Shown: positions 3,242-17,221, counted from the first letter of the stretch. The stretch: DNA of 20,434 bases from a virus (IMGVR_UViG_3300005663_000230:1-20434); one strand, 5' to 3'. A program made the numbers and translations. Notes: generated from the sequence alone by a model not told the origin.

Positions 3242-3502
3242 TCACCCGAGGTAGATCTTGAGCCCCCACATGATCGCGCTGATCAGACCGCCGCCCAGCG
3301 CCGCGTAGACGCTGACGCGGACTTTGATGCCCGTGATCTCGCGCTTCAGTTCCTGGATCTCACCGCGAAGAACCTCGATCTTGCTGTCGGTCCCCTCTTT
3401 CTGGGTACCGGCCTTTGCGGTCAGATCCTCCAACCACTTTTGGAACCGCTCAAGCTCGTGCAGAACGAGTTCGCGGTATTCGTTCCAGCTACGTTTCGCC
3501 AT
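3242..3502 (-). CDS. Coiled-coil protein with C-terminal membrane helix (XhlA-like architecture)
   Basis: 86 residues: a charged helical N-terminus, a heptad-like segment (SKIEVLRGEIQELKREITG, about residues 40-58) and a C-terminal hydrophobic helix (VYAALGGGLISAIMWGLKIYL). This is the layout of XhlA/holin-associated and other small phage membrane proteins, though I see no residue-level match. ATG 3502 is preferred over an in-frame start at 3553 because GAGGA lies eight bases upstream and the predicted protein then starts MAKRSWNEY. It overlaps the end of the receiver-like gene by 14 bases. A lipoprotein gene follows after a 67-base gap. It could be an inner-membrane partner in lysis, or a structural membrane-contact protein. 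Confidence 0.75.
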   Translation of the reverse strand: MAKRSWNEYRELVLHELERFQKWLEDLTAKAGTQKEGTDSKIEVLRGEIQELKREITGIKVRVSVYAALGGGLISAIMWGLKIYLG

Positions 3503-4001
3503 CCGGGAAGTCCTCGCTTTGGATTTCCTCATCCAGGGCGAGGAGTCGGTCAAGGCCGACGCGCGACATCACATCTGCTGGGACGCCCGCCTTTTTCAGG
3601 ACGCGCGTCTGTTGGGCCTCTCGGCGTTGAGCAGCATGAATCACCACGCGAGGGAGCGTGCCGTTTCCGATCTCCTGCCTGTCCAGAAAGTCCTGAGCCC
3701 CCGCACGCATGGCGTTGTGAAGTTGTTTTTCGTCAACTCCTTCGGCAATGACGACCACCGCAGGGTGGTGATGGTGTGCACTCACCGCTTCGATGAACTT
3801 GAGCAGTGCATCGTCCATGGCTTGCTGGATGATGATCACGTCCACAGGCGTCTTCTCGATCCTGGCGTACGCTCTCTCCGGCCGTTGGATGACCTCCACG
3901 TCAAAGCCCTTCCCTCGGCGCGCGAACAGCGACTCAAGGTGAGCAGAGCACGGAGACTGCGCAGCCCCCACGAGCATGACCGAGATTGAATTGTTTTGCA
4001 T
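3489..4001 (-). CDS. Degenerate CheY-like receiver-domain protein
   Basis: 170 residues. Residues about 5-103 follow the alternating strand/helix plan of a response-regulator receiver domain: SVMLVGAA (strand 1), a helix, DVEVIQ (strand 2), ARIEKTPVDVIIIQ (helix then strand 3), AVVVIAEG (strand 4) and AMRAGAQDFLDR (helix then strand 5). The phosphoacceptor Asp expected at the end of strand 3 is Gln59, the Thr/Ser switch residue after strand 4 is Ala86, and the conserved Lys of strand 5 appears to be Arg. This points to a pseudo-receiver that cannot be phosphorylated normally. A basic helical tail follows with no DNA-binding output domain. GGGGGAGA lies eight bases before ATG 4001. It is unusual among virion genes. 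A protein-interaction role is my inference. Confidence 0.7.
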   Translation of the reverse strand: MQNNSISVMLVGAAQSPCSAHLESLFARRGKGFDVEVIQRPERAYARIEKTPVDVIIIQQAMDDALLKFIEAVSAHHHHPAVVVIAEGVDEKQLHNAMRAGAQDFLDRQEIGNGTLPRVVIHAAQRREAQQTRVLKKAGVPADVMSRVGLDRLLALDEEIQSEDFPDGET

Positions 4002-10950: not shown

Positions 10951-12456
10951 TTAGGGGCCGAATCCTGCGGAGACGGCGACATTCACAACCTCGCCCGTGG
11001 CGAAGAAGTTCGTGTCGACCATGAACTTCGCGTACTCGGTCCAGAGACCGCGCTGCGTGACGCCGAACGGCTGGACGAGCGGCGGCGAGGTGTAGAACGG
11101 GATGTACGGCGCGTACACCAACCCCGCCTTCAGGAAGCCCGGTCCCCGGTAGCCGACCACGAACCGGTTGGGGTTCGTGCCGCCGCCGACATCCGGCATA
11201 CGGGGGTCGACGACCACGTCCCACTGGCCGTCGATCTTTCCGGCCAGGGTCGGGCCTGCGGTGGCCTTCGTGCCGAAGCTCGGGTCCGGCACGAAGCGCG
11301 GCGCACCGATGTCGCGCAGGATCGAGAGCACCTCGGTCCCGCAGACAACGAAGTTCGGCTGGATCTGCTGCGTCGCCTGATAGACGAGATCCGAAGCCTG
11401 GATGATGGCACCGATCAGGCCTTCCTTGTGCCACTTGAAGGCGAACCCGCCGCCCGTGTTCCGGTTGAAGACCACGTTTCCTGCTGTGGCCTCCTGAACC
11501 ATGAAGTCGATCAGTTCACGGACGATTTCCGCCGTGACCGTCTCCGACATGGACACAACCAGTTCCGCGTCGGCGTCGCCACCGTACTGGCTGCGGAAGT
11601 CCGCAACCGTCTTGTGGCTGTACTCGATCTGGAGGTTGCGCGGCTCGGCCCGAATCAACTGCTGCTGCAATTCGAGCTTGACCTTCGGGATGAGGGGGTT
11701 TCCCTCGGAGTCGTACTTGTACGTCGTGAGGATCGGAAGTGTGACCGCTCCCGTGAAGGTCATGCCCACGACTGCGCCCGTGAGGTAGTCGATGGTTCCG
11801 CCGCCGGTCGTGTCACCGACGAGCGCGCCGTTGCCATCGTCGCGAACGACGAGAGGCGTGGCGGCCGAGTCGAACATCTCGAACGAACCCGGGCGGATCG
11901 GGAAGTACGTGCCGACAAGGCTCGCGGCCTTGGCGAACGGTCCCGGGGTCGTCCCCGTGAAGCGCGCTTCACGGAAGATGACTTCGTCCGAGTAGTGGAA
12001 ATTGGTGCCCTGGAACCCGGTCGTCGCGTCGAAGATCCGGCTTCCCCCGACCAGTTCACCCTTGTCGTTCTCGCGGATGATGCTGTAGTAGAAGACGTTC
12101 GAGTGCGGACCGGCCATCGGCTGAACCGAGGCCAGGACGCTGATGATGTCCTCCTGGAACGCTGCGCGAACCATCGGGAACATCCACTGCTCGAAGCTGC
12201 CGAGGTTCACCGCCTTCATCGCCTCATCCATCTGGCTGAGGTAATTGCCGGTGTTCTCCAGAAGCTGAGCGACGACCGCCTGCTTGTAGGGGTCCTCCAT
12301 CTCGGCGATGAAGTTCGTGGGACGCTTGTGGAAGCGCTTGTCCTTGTAGCGGGACCACTTGCGGATCAAGCCCTGGCGAGCGTCGATGAAATTCGTCACC
12401 AGGGTCGACTCTTGCGCCTCGTTGAGAGGCTGAGCGACTGCTGCGGCCGTACTCAT
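10951..12456 (-). CDS. Major capsid protein, T4 gp23-like (HK97 fold)
   Basis: 501 residues from ATG 12456, where GGGAG lies about nine bases upstream; an in-frame reading from 12555 lacks a ribosome site. gp23-type signatures are VLASVQPMAGPHSNVFYY (residues 107-124), matching the gp23 VGVQPMxGP...FY motif, and a C-terminal FVVGYRG, GLVYAPYIPFYTSP, then TQRGLWTEYAKFMV block matching the GLFYAPYxPL...RYxxxMV region. It is the shell subunit of the icosahedral head. The N-terminus contains LNE at 11-13 and IAE at 50-52, either of which could be a gp21-type processing site, by analogy with T4. It follows the protease/scaffold gene as in T4 and is closed by a terminator. The family call is strong. 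Confidence 0.94.
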   Translation of the reverse strand: MSTAAAVAQPLNEAQESTLVTNFIDARQGLIRKWSRYKDKRFHKRPTNFIAEMEDPYKQAVVAQLLENTGNYLSQMDEAMKAVNLGSFEQWMFPMVRAAFQEDIISVLASVQPMAGPHSNVFYYSIIRENDKGELVGGSRIFDATTGFQGTNFHYSDEVIFREARFTGTTPGPFAKAASLVGTYFPIRPGSFEMFDSAATPLVVRDDGNGALVGDTTGGGTIDYLTGAVVGMTFTGAVTLPILTTYKYDSEGNPLIPKVKLELQQQLIRAEPRNLQIEYSHKTVADFRSQYGGDADAELVVSMSETVTAEIVRELIDFMVQEATAGNVVFNRNTGGGFAFKWHKEGLIGAIIQASDLVYQATQQIQPNFVVCGTEVLSILRDIGAPRFVPDPSFGTKATAGPTLAGKIDGQWDVVVDPRMPDVGGGTNPNRFVVGYRGPGFLKAGLVYAPYIPFYTSPPLVQPFGVTQRGLWTEYAKFMVDTNFFATGEVVNVAVSAGFGP

Positions 12457-12633: not shown

Positions 12634-14544
12634 CTACGACCCGCGCTTCTTGCGGGCGATCACGTTCTCCATCAGGAGCGATCCGTCGCCTTTCAGCGGC
12701 GCGGTCTCCGGATTCCCCATCTGGGGCGGCTTCTTCTTGGCTCTCCGAACGCCCACGGGCAGTACAGTCTCTTCAAGCTGCCGCTTCCGTGGCGCTGGCG
12801 CGGGCTTCCCGCGCTGCGCTGCCGGGGCTGCCTCGGTCAGATTCTCTTTGCTTCCGCCGGAGGCGCGATTCAAGTTCTCCATCATGGTCTGGAAACCACT
12901 CTTGGACTTCTTGCCTTCGACCGGGTTCATCGGGACCATGACATAGGCCTGGGCGTCCGGCGCGTCGGCGACCTCGGGCGGGACCTCGAACTTCTGCCCT
13001 TCACCCTCGCCCGCGCCCTCGCCCTCGATGTCATCCACGTCCATGCCGAGATCCAGTTCGTCGTCGCCTTCCTCGTCACCTTCCTCGTCACCTTCCTCGT
13101 CGCCGAAGAAATCGCCGCCCATGTCGTCGCCGCCCATGTCGTCGTCGTCGCCATTGACGTAGTCGTCCACGCCGTCTCTCTCGGCGATCTCGGCCATGCC
13201 GATGGACTGTTCGTAGTCGACGCCGTGGGCCTTCGCGAAGGAGGCCGCAATGTCGTTCTCGGCGATGCCCATGGACTGGAGAGCCTTGTACAGGGTGTCG
13301 CCGTCGAAGATCTGGCCGTACGCATCGCCATTGACGAGCACGCGGTAGAAGCCGTCCTCTTCGAGGCCGATCTCCACGTTGACCTCTTCCTCGTTGTGCA
13401 TGCGCACGCGGGTGCCCAGCATCGCCTCGGCCAGCCCGACCATGCCCGAAACATCCTGGGAGGTCTTGAGCGCCGAACGGCACTGCGCGGTGTCCAGCGC
13501 CGGGTTGGCTTCGATGATGCGCTCCATCGAGGTCTTGAACTGTTCCTCGCGGTAGCGCTTCCCGGTGTCGACAGCCAGCGTCTTCGCAGCTTTCAACTGC
13601 TTCTTGATGTGCTGGTTTTCGCGACGGAGGCCACGATTCTCGTTCACAAGGCCGACGTTCAACCCGGCCAGAGACTCCATGTCCATATCACCCATCTCCT
13701 CGTAGTTGTCGTCGTCGTAGCCCATCTCGTCGTGAGCGTAATCCATCTCATCCTGAGGCTGACCCATGCCGCCCGGGTGCACTCCACCCATTTCGTCGCG
13801 CGGCATCGGACGACCTCGACGACGACGGCGACGCATGGGGTGTCCGCCCATGCCCATTTCCTGGACGATTTCCTCGTCGCCATCAGACTGGTCGCTGGCA
13901 ACGATGCCCTGAAGATCCTTGACCTTCTTGCCCCTGCGGCTGGTCTGCTTGTTCTTGGTGTCGTAGGCGACGTGCATGCCCTTCGCGCCGGGGATCTTCT
14001 TCGAGCCTTCCTCGTCGAGGTTGGCTGCACCGCCCTGAGACTCGGTGCCGATGATCTTGCCGTGCTTCTGACCGGTCTCGCCTGCGGGGACCTTGACGCC
14101 GGGCTTCACGCCGGGACCCGGAGGCGTGCCGTCGTTGGACGTGCCTTCGGGATCTTCGATGTGGCCCTGACCTTCTGCGCCGCCGGGGCCGAGGTTCTGG
14201 CCCTTCTTGCCGACAGTCGGGAGCACGTCGAGTTCGTCGATGGACGGAGACGTGGCAACGCTGAGACCCTTCGCGCCCGACAACGGGGTCGGGTCGGCCT
14301 CGTTCATGGCCGCCGTGATGACCTCAAGGATCTCGTCGCGATGGTGCTGGATCTTGCCCTTCATCGAGGCGGCAAGGTCCAGAGCAGCGCTGTCGGTGAG
14401 CGCGGAACGGGCCGAGAACAGACCTTCATTCAGCGCGTCGAGTTCCTTCAGGTACTCGGTGAGGTTGCCCTTCGGCTGAATGCTGAGACTGCCCAGCTTC
14501 GGCTCCAACCGGCTCAGCCTCGTGCGGATTTCCGTAAGGTCCAT
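12634..14544 (-). CDS. Internally initiated scaffold protein (nested in protease gene)
   Basis: ATG 14544, codon 233 of the protease/scaffold ORF, is preceded by AGGAGA at a seven-base spacing, as good as any gene start in this window. Initiation there would give a 636-residue protein starting MDLTEIRTRLSRLEPKLG that has no protease domain. This parallels lambda, where the Nu3 scaffold is read from an internal start of protease gene C, and would supply excess scaffold over protease. The start falls just after the protease domain, at the expected domain boundary. The site is seen in the sequence; its use in vivo is inferred. Confidence 0.58.
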   Translation of the reverse strand: MDLTEIRTRLSRLEPKLGSLSIQPKGNLTEYLKELDALNEGLFSARSALTDSAALDLAASMKGKIQHHRDEILEVITAAMNEADPTPLSGAKGLSVATSPSIDELDVLPTVGKKGQNLGPGGAEGQGHIEDPEGTSNDGTPPGPGVKPGVKVPAGETGQKHGKIIGTESQGGAANLDEEGSKKIPGAKGMHVAYDTKNKQTSRRGKKVKDLQGIVASDQSDGDEEIVQEMGMGGHPMRRRRRRGRPMPRDEMGGVHPGGMGQPQDEMDYAHDEMGYDDDNYEEMGDMDMESLAGLNVGLVNENRGLRRENQHIKKQLKAAKTLAVDTGKRYREEQFKTSMERIIEANPALDTAQCRSALKTSQDVSGMVGLAEAMLGTRVRMHNEEEVNVEIGLEEDGFYRVLVNGDAYGQIFDGDTLYKALQSMGIAENDIAASFAKAHGVDYEQSIGMAEIAERDGVDDYVNGDDDDMGGDDMGGDFFGDEEGDEEGDEEGDDELDLGMDVDDIEGEGAGEGEGQKFEVPPEVADAPDAQAYVMVPMNPVEGKKSKSGFQTMMENLNRASGGSKENLTEAAPAAQRGKPAPAPRKRQLEETVLPVGVRRAKKKPPQMGNPETAPLKGDGSLLMENVIARKKRGS

Positions 14545-15240
14545 CACCGTGTCTCCTCTGTTCGCAGGAAGTGAGTAGTGAGTCCCGGCAGCCTGCTGCT
14601 CTTTCAGGAGCTTGCGCCGAGCTTCCTGCGCCTCGTTGATGGCTTCCCGAACCGCGCGCGGGAATGCCCCGGGCGTGCTCGGACGAGCCACAATATCCCA
14701 AACGATGGTTTCGCGGTCAACATCGTCCTGGACAATGTCGGCATCCGCCGGGAAGGCCGGATACTTGGCCCCCTCATTCCGGATGACCGAGCCCTGGGCG
14801 CGGCTGGATGCGCCCGTCTCGACGTTGGCTTCCCACAGAGCCTCAACGATCTTGCCGTCGGGTGTGGGCAGGGCCTCGAACTCGCCGATGATGGCTGTGT
14901 CGGGATCTTCGCCCTGGGCGATGAGTTCTTCACGCATCCCCGGGAACTTGTCGATGTAGCCAACATCGGTGAGCACGACGGCAAATTTGCGCAGGTCCGG
15001 TAGACCATCAGAGGGGTGCTCGATGTGCCCACATACGGCACGGCGGCCAACGCGGCCCATGAACTCCCCCGACGTCTCAAACAGGTTCTCGAAGAAGCTC
15101 TTCGGGTAAACCCGCTTGTTACCGTTTAGGGTGTCGTACCGCTGGATGATTCCACGGGCTCTGGTAGCCCCGTTTTCCTGCAAGTTCGACTCGACCAGCT
15201 TGAATCGCGTCGCTACGGAGTCCTCTAGCAATGTTCTCAT
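12634..15240 (-). CDS. Prohead protease (gp21-like) fused to scaffold-like protein
   Basis: 868 residues. Residues about 25-215 match gp21/U9-S80 prohead proteases: ARGIIQRYDTLNGNKRVYP, then VCGHIEHPSDG with the candidate catalytic His75, VVLTDVGYID, GEFEALPTPDGKIVEAL, and VETGASSRAQGSV with candidate nucleophile Ser145 or Ser146. Beyond residue 233 the sequence is scaffold-like: helical, then a Gly/Pro/Lys linker, an RRRRRR cluster near 467, a coiled coil at about 528-553, a Glu/Asp-rich stretch around 690-735 with three GDEE repeats, and a basic tail. T4 keeps protease (gp21) and scaffold (gp22) as separate genes; here they share one frame, with an internal start. The gene starts at ATG 15240 inside the end of the preceding ORF and lies just before the capsid gene. 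Confidence 0.9.
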   Translation of the reverse strand: MRTLLEDSVATRFKLVESNLQENGATRARGIIQRYDTLNGNKRVYPKSFFENLFETSGEFMGRVGRRAVCGHIEHPSDGLPDLRKFAVVLTDVGYIDKFPGMREELIAQGEDPDTAIIGEFEALPTPDGKIVEALWEANVETGASSRAQGSVIRNEGAKYPAFPADADIVQDDVDRETIVWDIVARPSTPGAFPRAVREAINEAQEARRKLLKEQQAAGTHYSLPANRGDTVMDLTEIRTRLSRLEPKLGSLSIQPKGNLTEYLKELDALNEGLFSARSALTDSAALDLAASMKGKIQHHRDEILEVITAAMNEADPTPLSGAKGLSVATSPSIDELDVLPTVGKKGQNLGPGGAEGQGHIEDPEGTSNDGTPPGPGVKPGVKVPAGETGQKHGKIIGTESQGGAANLDEEGSKKIPGAKGMHVAYDTKNKQTSRRGKKVKDLQGIVASDQSDGDEEIVQEMGMGGHPMRRRRRRGRPMPRDEMGGVHPGGMGQPQDEMDYAHDEMGYDDDNYEEMGDMDMESLAGLNVGLVNENRGLRRENQHIKKQLKAAKTLAVDTGKRYREEQFKTSMERIIEANPALDTAQCRSALKTSQDVSGMVGLAEAMLGTRVRMHNEEEVNVEIGLEEDGFYRVLVNGDAYGQIFDGDTLYKALQSMGIAENDIAASFAKAHGVDYEQSIGMAEIAERDGVDDYVNGDDDDMGGDDMGGDFFGDEEGDEEGDEEGDDELDLGMDVDDIEGEGAGEGEGQKFEVPPEVADAPDAQAYVMVPMNPVEGKKSKSGFQTMMENLNRASGGSKENLTEAAPAAQRGKPAPAPRKRQLEETVLPVGVRRAKKKPPQMGNPETAPLKGDGSLLMENVIARKKRGS
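13065..13100 (-). repeat. Three 12-bp coding repeats (GDEE)
   Basis: Plus-strand unit CACCTTCCTCGT occurs three times in tandem, the first with one base difference, and encodes GDEE repeats of the acidic scaffold region (about residues 714-725). Near-identity of units suggests recent slippage. Confidence 0.85.
13113..13142 (-). repeat. Two 15-bp coding repeats (DDMGG)
   Basis: Two identical 15-base units (CGCCGCCCATGTCGT on the plus strand) in tandem encode DDMGG repeats just before the GDEE array in the same acidic region. Confidence 0.8.
14545..14557 (-). promoter_or_regulatory. Internal ribosome binding site for nested scaffold
   Basis: AGGAGA (14557-14552) with a seven-base spacer to ATG 14544, inside the protease/scaffold ORF and in the same frame. 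It encodes the NRGDTV residues in the long protein. Its quality and its position at the domain boundary argue for function. Confidence 0.6.
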
Positions 15241-15538
15241 GCTGCTTCTGCTCCGTCATCCGAATCGGCTCGATCTTGTCGTCGGCTTCTGTTTCGCCGA
15301 AGAGGTAGAGTGCCTGCCCATTCTCGCAAGCGAGCCGTAGGCACTGCTCCCAAAGTTCGAGCCGCATGATCTGCGGGCAACGCCCAAAGTCTTCCGCCCA
15401 GATCTCGTAACTCCGCTGGTCGTCTAACTGGATCTTGACCAGTGGGTATTTGGGCTCGAAGTACACGATGAAGAAAGCAGACTGCTTCCGAACATCGGTC
15501 GGTGGAAATCTGCTTCCGCTGCCATCCATCTGCACCAT
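15119..15538 (-). CDS. Small unknown protein overlapping the protease start
   Basis: 139 residues. The first two thirds look like a genuine folded protein: SAFFIVYFEPKYPLVKIQL strands, SYEIWAEDFGRCPQIMRLEL, a LWEQCLRLACENG helix and QALYLFGETE. The last 40 residues, which overlap the protease ORF by 122 bases, are low in hydrophobic residues and look like an overprinted tail. ATG 15538 has no convincing ribosome site. A 6-bp hairpin (15548-15564) lies ten bases upstream and might limit access. An ORF in another frame of the same strand (15237-15605) is Arg-rich and less protein-like. No family is recognised. Confidence 0.6.
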   Translation of the reverse strand: MVQMDGSGSRFPPTDVRKQSAFFIVYFEPKYPLVKIQLDDQRSYEIWAEDFGRCPQIMRLELWEQCLRLACENGQALYLFGETEADDKIEPIRMTEQKQHENIARGLRSDAIQAGRVELAGKRGYQSPWNHPAVRHPKR

Positions 15539-15582: not shown

Positions 15583-16041
15583 TCAGATGTGGCCCTGAGT
15601 GACATCCACCAACATCGTGCCTGTTCCGCTCGTGATCCGAAGGCGCAGGGCGTCCGGCGAGCGCGCGTTCGTCAAAGTCGGCCAGTCGACGATCCGGCGC
15701 GACCGGCCCAGGGGTACGACTACGTCGCTCGCAATCGAATCCCAGGTCGTGGTCGCGTCGACCTCGGTCTGCTCGACGTTTCCGCCCGTGATGCCGATCT
15801 GACGGTCTCGGTTGTCAAAGTCGAACGCGGCCAGGATCTCGACCGTCAGGCTATCCTCCAGATCCTGGTTCTCGTACTCGAAAATCATGGCCGTGTTCAG
15901 GAAAGGCCCACGAAAATAGCGGCCGTCGGGCTCAGTCGTCGGCGGGAACACCTGGGTGCGGATCGTCTCTTCGCTGTGCAGGAAGAAACGCTGGTTGAAA
16001 ATGTTGGCAGCCTGAGTCTCGACACCAGGAGCGTTACTCAC
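15583..16041 (-). CDS. Unknown beta-rich virion-cluster protein
   Basis: 152 residues from GTG 16041, with AGAGGAG seven bases upstream; the start overlaps the glycosyltransferase stop by eight bases. The sequence has alternating strands (RYFRGPFLNTAMIFEYENQ, SLTVEILAAFDFDN, IASDVVVPLG, ALRLRITSGTGTMLVDVTQ) and no helical domain, suggesting a single beta-sandwich. No signal peptide or enzymatic motif is visible. Together with the two small beta proteins upstream of the glycosyltransferase it may be a head-surface or fibre component and a candidate glycosylation target; that is inference from position. Confidence 0.7.
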   Translation of the reverse strand: MSNAPGVETQAANIFNQRFFLHSEETIRTQVFPPTTEPDGRYFRGPFLNTAMIFEYENQDLEDSLTVEILAAFDFDNRDRQIGITGGNVEQTEVDATTTWDSIASDVVVPLGRSRRIVDWPTLTNARSPDALRLRITSGTGTMLVDVTQGHI

Positions 16042-17221
16042 AGTAGATCTCCTCTCGGCTCAGACGAATGAGCACCGAACTGCCCAGGTCGCCATCTCCG
16101 ACTCTGTCCCCTGAATCATATGCCAAGGGCGTCACAACGTCGGATTCTAGCTCTGCTTGCTGTAAAAGCCAAGACGACCGTGGCTCCAAGCTGAGCACTG
16201 GAACGGCCCGGCCCTGGATCAGATCCTCGGCTACGCCTGCCGTAGGGACGAGAGGCTCTTCCAGGGAAATGGTCCTCGCACCGCGCAGCATCATCGAAAC
16301 CTGCCGCCCAACGTCCACACCCTCTTTGAACGGGATCAGTTCGACGCGCTGGTGGGAATACTCTTTGCACTCGAACAAGTCCGCGTCCGTCGCCGTAACC
16401 TGGGCAGCGATAACTATAGGCTTCGATGTAACTTGCGAACACCAGCCGCGCACGGCGGCGAGCGCGTCCGGGCTGTCGTACGGGATGACTACGGCAAGCG
16501 CCGGGTCGCCCAGACGCTGAATCGATTCACGCATCAGCCCCTTGCAAGTGTCTTCCAGCAGGGCTGTGTTGCGGCGCGAAGTCTGTAGTTCGTGCTGCCG
16601 GTACTCGTAGAGCTTCTGCGGAATGTGAACAAACTGGCAGGTCTCGGCCAGCTTGATCACCAGATCAAAATCTTCGGCCGTGGGCAGTGTCGGATTGACA
16701 CCTGCGGTTCTGTCGTAGGCCGACTTGCGCATCATGCGAAACTGAAAAGCGCACAGACCGGACTGCTGCATACGCCGTAGCGAGAACATACGACGGCAGC
16801 GCTTCTCGAAGTGGGGATCGTGCTTGGAGGGTGCGCCGTCCGATTCGACCCTAAGGTAGTCCGAATAGACCACACCGACTTGTTTGGGGCAGCCTTCCAG
16901 AGTGTTAAGAGTCATCGAGAGCGCTTCGGGAACGATCCGGTCGTCGGCGTCGACCTGACAAAAAAACTCCGAGGCCACTTCGCGGTAGGCTTGCGCGACG
17001 CGCCCCGGAGTTCCAAGATGTCCGTTGGTCAGTAGCTGGAAGCGGCTGTCCCTCTCGGCAAAGGACCGTACGATCTCTCTCGTGCGATCCTGCGAGCCGT
17101 CGTCGTAGACCTTGCAGACGAAGTCTGAGAAGCTCTGCTGCTCAACCGAGCGTAAGCAGTCTTCCAGATATTCCTCGGCGTTGTACGCCGGGACAACGAC
17201 CGTAACGCGGGAACCGCTCAC
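16034..17221 (-). CDS. Family 2 (GT-A) glycosyltransferase with extra C-terminal domain
   Basis: 395 residues. Residues 1-190 are a GT2 domain: VTVVVPAYNAEEYLEDCLRS, YDDGSQDRT (39-47, nucleotide binding), the metal-binding DXD as VDADD (Asp91/Asp93), and AED (182-184) supplying the usual catalytic acid/base. It would transfer a sugar from a nucleotide-sugar to an acceptor. Residues about 235-395 contain AVVIPYDSPDALAAVRGWCS, which resembles another GT-A opening but lacks a visible DXD, so it may be a degenerate second domain. GTG 17221 follows the preceding stop by seven bases without a ribosome site, implying coupling. Lying among virion genes, it may glycosylate a capsid or appendage protein; acceptor and sugar are unknown. 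Confidence 0.88.
   Translation of the reverse strand: MSGSRVTVVVPAYNAEEYLEDCLRSVEQQSFSDFVCKVYDDGSQDRTREIVRSFAERDSRFQLLTNGHLGTPGRVAQAYREVASEFFCQVDADDRIVPEALSMTLNTLEGCPKQVGVVYSDYLRVESDGAPSKHDPHFEKRCRRMFSLRRMQQSGLCAFQFRMMRKSAYDRTAGVNPTLPTAEDFDLVIKLAETCQFVHIPQKLYEYRQHELQTSRRNTALLEDTCKGLMRESIQRLGDPALAVVIPYDSPDALAAVRGWCSQVTSKPIVIAAQVTATDADLFECKEYSHQRVELIPFKEGVDVGRQVSMMLRGARTISLEEPLVPTAGVAEDLIQGRAVPVLSLEPRSSWLLQQAELESDVVTPLAYDSGDRVGDGDLGSSVLIRLSREEIYCE

Follow-up and report, generated by a model that had tools for sequence, protein, structure and literature searches.

The best reading of the gene described here is that T4-type phages carry a protease-scaffold gene resembling herpesvirus UL26/UL26.5. 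It was found in a 20,434-nt stretch of viral DNA (IMGVR_UViG_3300005663_000230:1-20434), hereafter the window, whose source is called the window phage. The gene probably yields two co-terminal products, the full-length protease-scaffold and a scaffold that begins at Met233, with self-cleavage as in UL26/UL26.5. Fusion of the two proteins is by itself ordinary, being already present in known phage genomes, where it has mostly gone unremarked. The new part appears, from comparison of sequences, to be a conserved nested start in gp21-type genes; a scaffold start within a gp21-type gene is undescribed in the literature searched, which left most subscription journals outside its coverage.

T4-type head maturation is taught as the work of two distinct genes, one for the protease and one for the scaffold. 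Fusion combined with a conserved internal scaffold start explains how the protease could enter the core, would allow the protease-to-scaffold ratio to be set at translation, and links the T4 lineage to the herpesvirus arrangement. In dozens of phages the scaffold gene is unannotated and probably lies inside the protease gene.

The open reading frame and its neighbours

The first-pass annotation had described a protease continuing without a stop into a scaffold-like region, and the 868-codon ORF is indeed stop-free (Table 1). Its 3' end lies 178 bases upstream of where a gp23-type capsid gene probably begins; the product of that gene carries L/I-x-E sites close to its N-terminus.

Table 1. Features of the protease-scaffold gene and the adjoining capsid gene, in window coordinates.
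Feature	Position	Strand	Basis or remark
Protease-scaffold fusion ORF, 868 aa	12634..15240	(-)	ATG start; no internal stops; frame 0 coding throughout
gp23-type major capsid protein gene	10951..12456	(-)	likely start ATG at 12456; Pfam Gp23 E 6.5e-43
S77 (T4 gp21-type) prohead protease domain, residues 24-191	14668..15171	(-)	profile and AlphaFold matches to 5jbl
Catalytic His75 codon	15016..15018	(-)	invariant; aligns with T4 gp21 column
Catalytic Ser145 codon	14806..14808	(-)	invariant; aligns with T4 nucleophile column
Linker, residues 192-232 (41 residues)	14545..14667	(-)	pLDDT <50 over most; atypical codon usage
AINE, residues 200-203, candidate self-cleavage site of L/I-x-E type	14632..14643	(-)	just past protease domain
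AGGAGA, candidate internal Shine-Dalgarno	14552..14557	(-)	spacing to ATG exactly seven bases
ATG codon 233, candidate nested scaffold start	14542..14544	(-)	sequence; same arrangement in the majority of 33 fused ORFs from another clade
Scaffold-like region / putative nested scaffold product, 636 aa	12634..14544	(-)	helical, disordered, acidic in part
Long predicted helix, residues 521-578, coiled-coil candidate	13507..13680	(-)	low-confidence model

A continuous frame of this kind could arise if a stop had been lost through assembly or sequencing error, or through very recent mutation, the real genes being separate and the scaffold beginning at codon 233. The nearest relatives of the window are split, and an exact search with the junction DNA found no second contig with the same junction. 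The linker also holds the lowest codon-adaptation windows of the ORF; the least typical stretch, codons 212-229 or, counted back from the junction signal, the 20 codons ahead of it, resembles a read-through leader. Against this, three-frame coding scores place frame 0 best across the junction, with no other frame taking over and no sign of a frameshift, comparable dips in codon typicality occur in some fused relatives, and the fusion is common among gp23-type phages. We regard a lost stop as very improbable.

Elsewhere on the minus strand of the window, a 139-aa ORF of protein-like composition (15119-15538) lies in another frame and overlaps the protease start by 122 bases; a rival 122-aa ORF ends in an ATGA overlap at that start. 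A GT2-family glycosyltransferase gene (16034-17221) sits within the head gene module, and a response-regulator receiver-like domain (3489-4001; Pfam E 2.5e-7) lies among structural genes.

The protease domain

Residues 1-191 are a T4 gp21-type (S77) serine protease by sequence, fold and catalytic residues. Pfam Peptidase_S77 aligned with residues 29-196 at E 1.5e-4 (21.8 bits, below the 27-bit cut-off), whereas PHROG 207, head maturation protease, matched residues 14-298 at E 6.8e-20. A profile built from the window protease and 19 relatives matched T4 gp21 (5jbl) at E 2e-28, and the same structure was the top PDB match to the AlphaFold model (E 2.7e-7; TM 0.72-0.74 by target). Confidence of the model drops over two stretches, residues 192-205 and 215-232.

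Two alignments, of 13 and 20 sequences, show no variation at His75 or Ser145. The T4 columns beneath both are Ala in the crystallised 5jbl chain, as would fit an inactivated enzyme. The first-pass annotation had named His75 and Ser145/146; the fold, His75 and Ser145 stand, while Ser146, though near-invariant, is only the neighbour of the residue in the nucleophile column.

In three other loci (L063:3618-5342, on the same contig as L013; L064:3762-5429; L078:2597-4318) the S77 protease is split by a LAGLIDADG intein, recognised by Pfam Intein_splicing and LAGLIDADG_3 matches. In L063 the intein directly follows the catalytic-His motif GELDH; in L078 it lies just past that motif.

The scaffold-like half

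Residues 233-868 probably act as a scaffold. They share the traits of gp22-type scaffolds: a place directly before a gp23-type capsid gene, a helical and acidic make-up, and many L/I-x-E sites (15, against 6.6 in shuffles; P=0.001). The structure prediction for this half (pLDDT 48) was taken for secondary structure only; in this low-confidence model a helix begins at residue 3 of the putative nested product. The long acidic, coiled-coil region of the first-pass annotation is thus borne out as a helical or disordered, partly acidic half, its coiled-coil helix being a low-confidence candidate.

The same residues could instead be a different core or internal protein of the head, joined to the protease. 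They matched no PHROG family, a relation to known scaffold families was not found, and comparison with the acidic proteins, ~680 residues long, that the nearest split relatives encode showed no relation either. Position, composition and L/I-x-E enrichment all speak for a scaffold, however, as does the recurrence of the same order in fused clades and the annotation of a coil-containing or scaffolding protein at this place in split sisters; we consider a non-scaffold protein improbable.

Tandem repeats, YSEYIAENLDKNIA for example, occur in the scaffold halves of three other fused genes (L067, L068 and L070). Every repeat carries an I-x-E site, an arrangement reminiscent of a scaffold assembled from cleavable repeat units.

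Fused and split genes among gp23-type phages

The first-pass annotation set the window against T4-type phages, which it credited with separate protease and scaffold genes; this contrast was overstated, since many gp23-type phages have the fusion. Immediately ahead of a gp23-type capsid gene, one long ORF joins an S77 protease to a coiled or acidic tail in Bacillus SP-15, Listeria LIS04, Streptococcus GXN1, Maribacter Molly, Rhizobium TM30, Acinetobacter Ab1-TPeters, E. coli IME392 and the huge phages LR756504, LR756502, LR756500 and LR745206. Maribacter Colly also carries an S77 protease-scaffold fusion, and in Thermus phiLo the fused ORF is 475 residues long. The two genes are separate in cyanophages, Campylobacter phages, Melnitz, Vibrio phages and other T4-like phages. 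The nearest relatives of the window protease (27-40% identity) all have split genes; in the approximately 40 closest from IMG/VR, other genes stand between a 200-residue protease and the capsid gene downstream. Searches by capsid protein, tail sheath, exact junction DNA and genome contigs found no close relative of the window; nor was a close fused relative found.

Sharing the fusion does not entail sharing a nested start. SP-15, LIS04, GXN1, Maribacter Molly, the huge phages and Lak resemble the window in their S77-scaffold fusion. Unlike the window, SP-15, LIS04 and GXN1 have no Shine-Dalgarno start at the junction, even though their own ORF starts have strong ones; fusion without a nested start therefore exists. 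Among the huge phages and Maribacter phages, a clear Shine-Dalgarno is absent even at the start of the fused ORF.

Two of these genomes have peculiarities of their own. The fused ORF of Prevotella Lak-B5 (L071:3851-5596) has an uninterrupted frame only if TAG is decoded as Gln. In Bacillus SP-15 (L017:4893-7410) the annotation joins the major capsid gene from two pieces, separated by a putative endonuclease gene.

The candidate start at codon 233

Codon 233 is an ATG with AGGAGA at seven bases, exactly as first annotated. Given the protein, AGGAG or GGAGG at this place has P=0.013 by synonymous resampling, and the signal is spelled with rare codons (AGA and GGA make up 5% and 12% of their families). 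By the same resampling about 1.4 AGGAG/GGAGG-ATG pairs are expected in the ORF, and two are seen, at codons 233 and 519; a single site is thus unremarkable alone. The site at codon 519 is slightly stronger and lies within an E-E-M stretch. Duplex energy alone gives the codon-233 site a weaker P of 0.09-0.15, so that chance, put to synonymous resampling in two ways, gave a mixed result. Nor is the RNA at Met233 unusually open, standing at the 35th percentile of the ORF for openness. Judged on the window alone, a nested start is plausible, short of established, because the P of 0.013 is offset by the weaker duplex-energy P and the unopen RNA. The same signals were found strongly in fused relatives of another clade.

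The simplest competing account makes the full-length fusion the sole product, with free scaffold arising by self-cleavage and the ATG at the junction a chance match. The chance expectation of about 1.4 pairs speaks for it, as do the candidate cleavage sites at E203 and E214 and the fused genes of SP-15, LIS04 and GXN1, which have strong starts of their own and none at the junction. It would, on the other hand, force one protease per scaffold, for want of extra scaffold, and it sits poorly with the strong and specific junction signal in the clade described next, where in-frame, out-of-frame and position controls were applied. We judge it unlikely, though deserving of some weight.

A probable nested start across the TM30-type clade

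A search with TM30-type proteases returned 38 IMG/VR loci, nearly all of them fused, and wherever the contig extends that far a gp23-type capsid gene lies 10-440 bases downstream. After reduction at 70% identity, 33 non-redundant fused ORFs, from a clade other than that of the window, formed the test set. The junction holds the strongest internal Shine-Dalgarno-ATG of the ORF in 25 of the 33, against 6.4 expected if every ATG were equally good (P=7e-13, which treats the loci as independent; these are clusters below 70% identity and partly related). In L094, L096 and L117, for example, AGGAGG stands eight bases ahead of the junction ATG. Sites of -7 kcal/mol or stronger accompany 34% of in-frame junction ATGs, compared with 3.4% of frame-1 ATGs there and 2.4% of in-frame ATGs elsewhere.

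The signal is found in each of the three codon phases, and the linker residues that it overlies are unlike, so that the conserved element is a nucleotide signal, which argues for selection on the RNA at the junction. For 20 of the 33 loci tested, junction RNA ranks among the most open 10% of the ORF (median percentile 6%); the 33 include the window, which is outside those 20. Synonymous resampling gave values below 0.05 in 7 of 32 ORFs (combined P=6e-5); this test is weaker in the clade because it holds the linker residues fixed. In the split sisters Vibrio 1.031.O and Va2 a free scaffold starts at the matching place, and in Vibrio 1.031.O that start keeps the reading frame of the protease and follows a stop codon.

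The nested scaffold proposed in the first-pass annotation thus gains strong support as a trait that fused gp21-type genes have in general. Its suggestion that relatives with the same fusion should share the internal start held in this other clade, while a close fused relative of the window in which to look for it was not found in the searches above. The fused ORFs of IME392, Ab1-TPeters and TM30 are deposited as single genes, with candidate nested starts at codons 204, 218 and 207; these phages are cultured, making the nested start directly testable.

The candidate release site

According to published work, T4 gp21 cuts by the rule L/I-x-E and is itself processed at its C-terminus (PMC9026906). 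The linker of the window ORF contains two candidate sites, E203 and E214; residues 200-204 read AINE-A, and E203 lies 30 residues from Met233. In the TM30-type clade 31 of the 33 fused ORFs have an L/I-x-E site within 14 residues past the protease, compared with 29% of control windows of equal length inside the protease. The window protease would be expected to cut at L/I-x-E as well, and such sites occur, and are enriched, in its putative substrates.

In the linkers of the fused ORFs L087-L123 the kept motif is mostly NPxLVES, a likely self-release site.

A model for the fused gene

Our preferred reading, two co-terminal products, can be set out as a series of steps. Computation shows the ORF, the fold and catalytic residues of the protease, the capsid gene, the ribosome-binding ATG at the junction and the conservation of this layout in another clade; from these we infer translation from Met233, the ratio of the products, self-cleavage and a scaffold role for residues 233-868. 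The full-length protein (1-868) would place a gp21-type protease at the N-terminus of a scaffold, and the scaffold half would draw its protease into the prohead core. Initiation at Met233 would give scaffold alone (636 aa) in larger amount, because the core needs scaffold in excess of protease; the T4 core has 576 gp22 to 100 gp21 (PMC5694885). Upon closure of the gp23-type shell the protease would free itself at an L/I-x-E site, E203 being the best candidate, and would then turn on the scaffold, cutting at the many L/I-x-E sites there, and on the N-terminus of the capsid protein.

T4 gp21/gp22 shares with the window the protease family and fold, the catalytic His and Ser, the adjoining gp23-type capsid gene and L/I-x-E sites, but consists of two ORFs where the window has one. 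Gene 21 of T4 does have an internal start, at Met45, which yields a shorter form of the protease and not a scaffold (PMC9026906). TM30, IME392, Ab1-TPeters and the IMG/VR relatives resemble the window in gene order, fusion, candidate Shine-Dalgarno-ATG at the junction, L/I-x-E past the protease and capsid gene downstream; their scaffold halves are mostly 230-430 aa, as opposed to 636 in the window, and they belong to another clade in both the protease and capsid trees.

A hybrid of the T4 and lambda solutions had been proposed for the window in the first-pass annotation. Lambda C/Nu3 does have an in-frame scaffold start inside the protease gene; the protease families and capsid lineages of lambda C/Nu3, Mu and the Pseudomonas relatives of Mu differ, however, from those of the window. 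Mu, together with the Pseudomonas relatives of its protease/scaffold gene (PaMx73 gene 27 among them), is a known case of the nested-scaffold layout; for Mu and Mu-like phages, scaffold starts lying in frame within the protease gene have been described (PMC4378225).

In place of a hybrid, a UL26/UL26.5-like solution built on an S77 protease is the better description. As proposed for the window gene, the herpesvirus pair has an N-terminal protease on a scaffold, an in-frame nested scaffold, and the order release site, linker, start (PMC4498786); there the linker adds 21 residues to the cleaved scaffold relative to the nested one (PMC4498786). It differs in its protease, which is of a separate family by sequence (herpesvirus proteases are distant relatives of phage ones; PMC9026906), and in being an overlapping in-frame gene of a eukaryotic virus. 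In the window the counterpart to the UL26.5 gene is a candidate ribosome-binding site inside one phage ORF.

Origin of the fusion

The window protease groups with split genes in the protease tree (support 96/88), and the capsid protein of the window phage falls outside the TM30-type clade. An AU test did not reject a single origin with the TM30-type nested genes (p=0.13). Together the two trees suggest that the window fusion arose independently, with the AU result leaving room for a common origin. On a wider scale, T4-type phages may repeatedly have evolved a single-gene protease-scaffold with an internal ribosome-binding site and a release site, in convergence with UL26/UL26.5 and with the window as an independent case; we hold this tentatively, at slightly short of an even chance.
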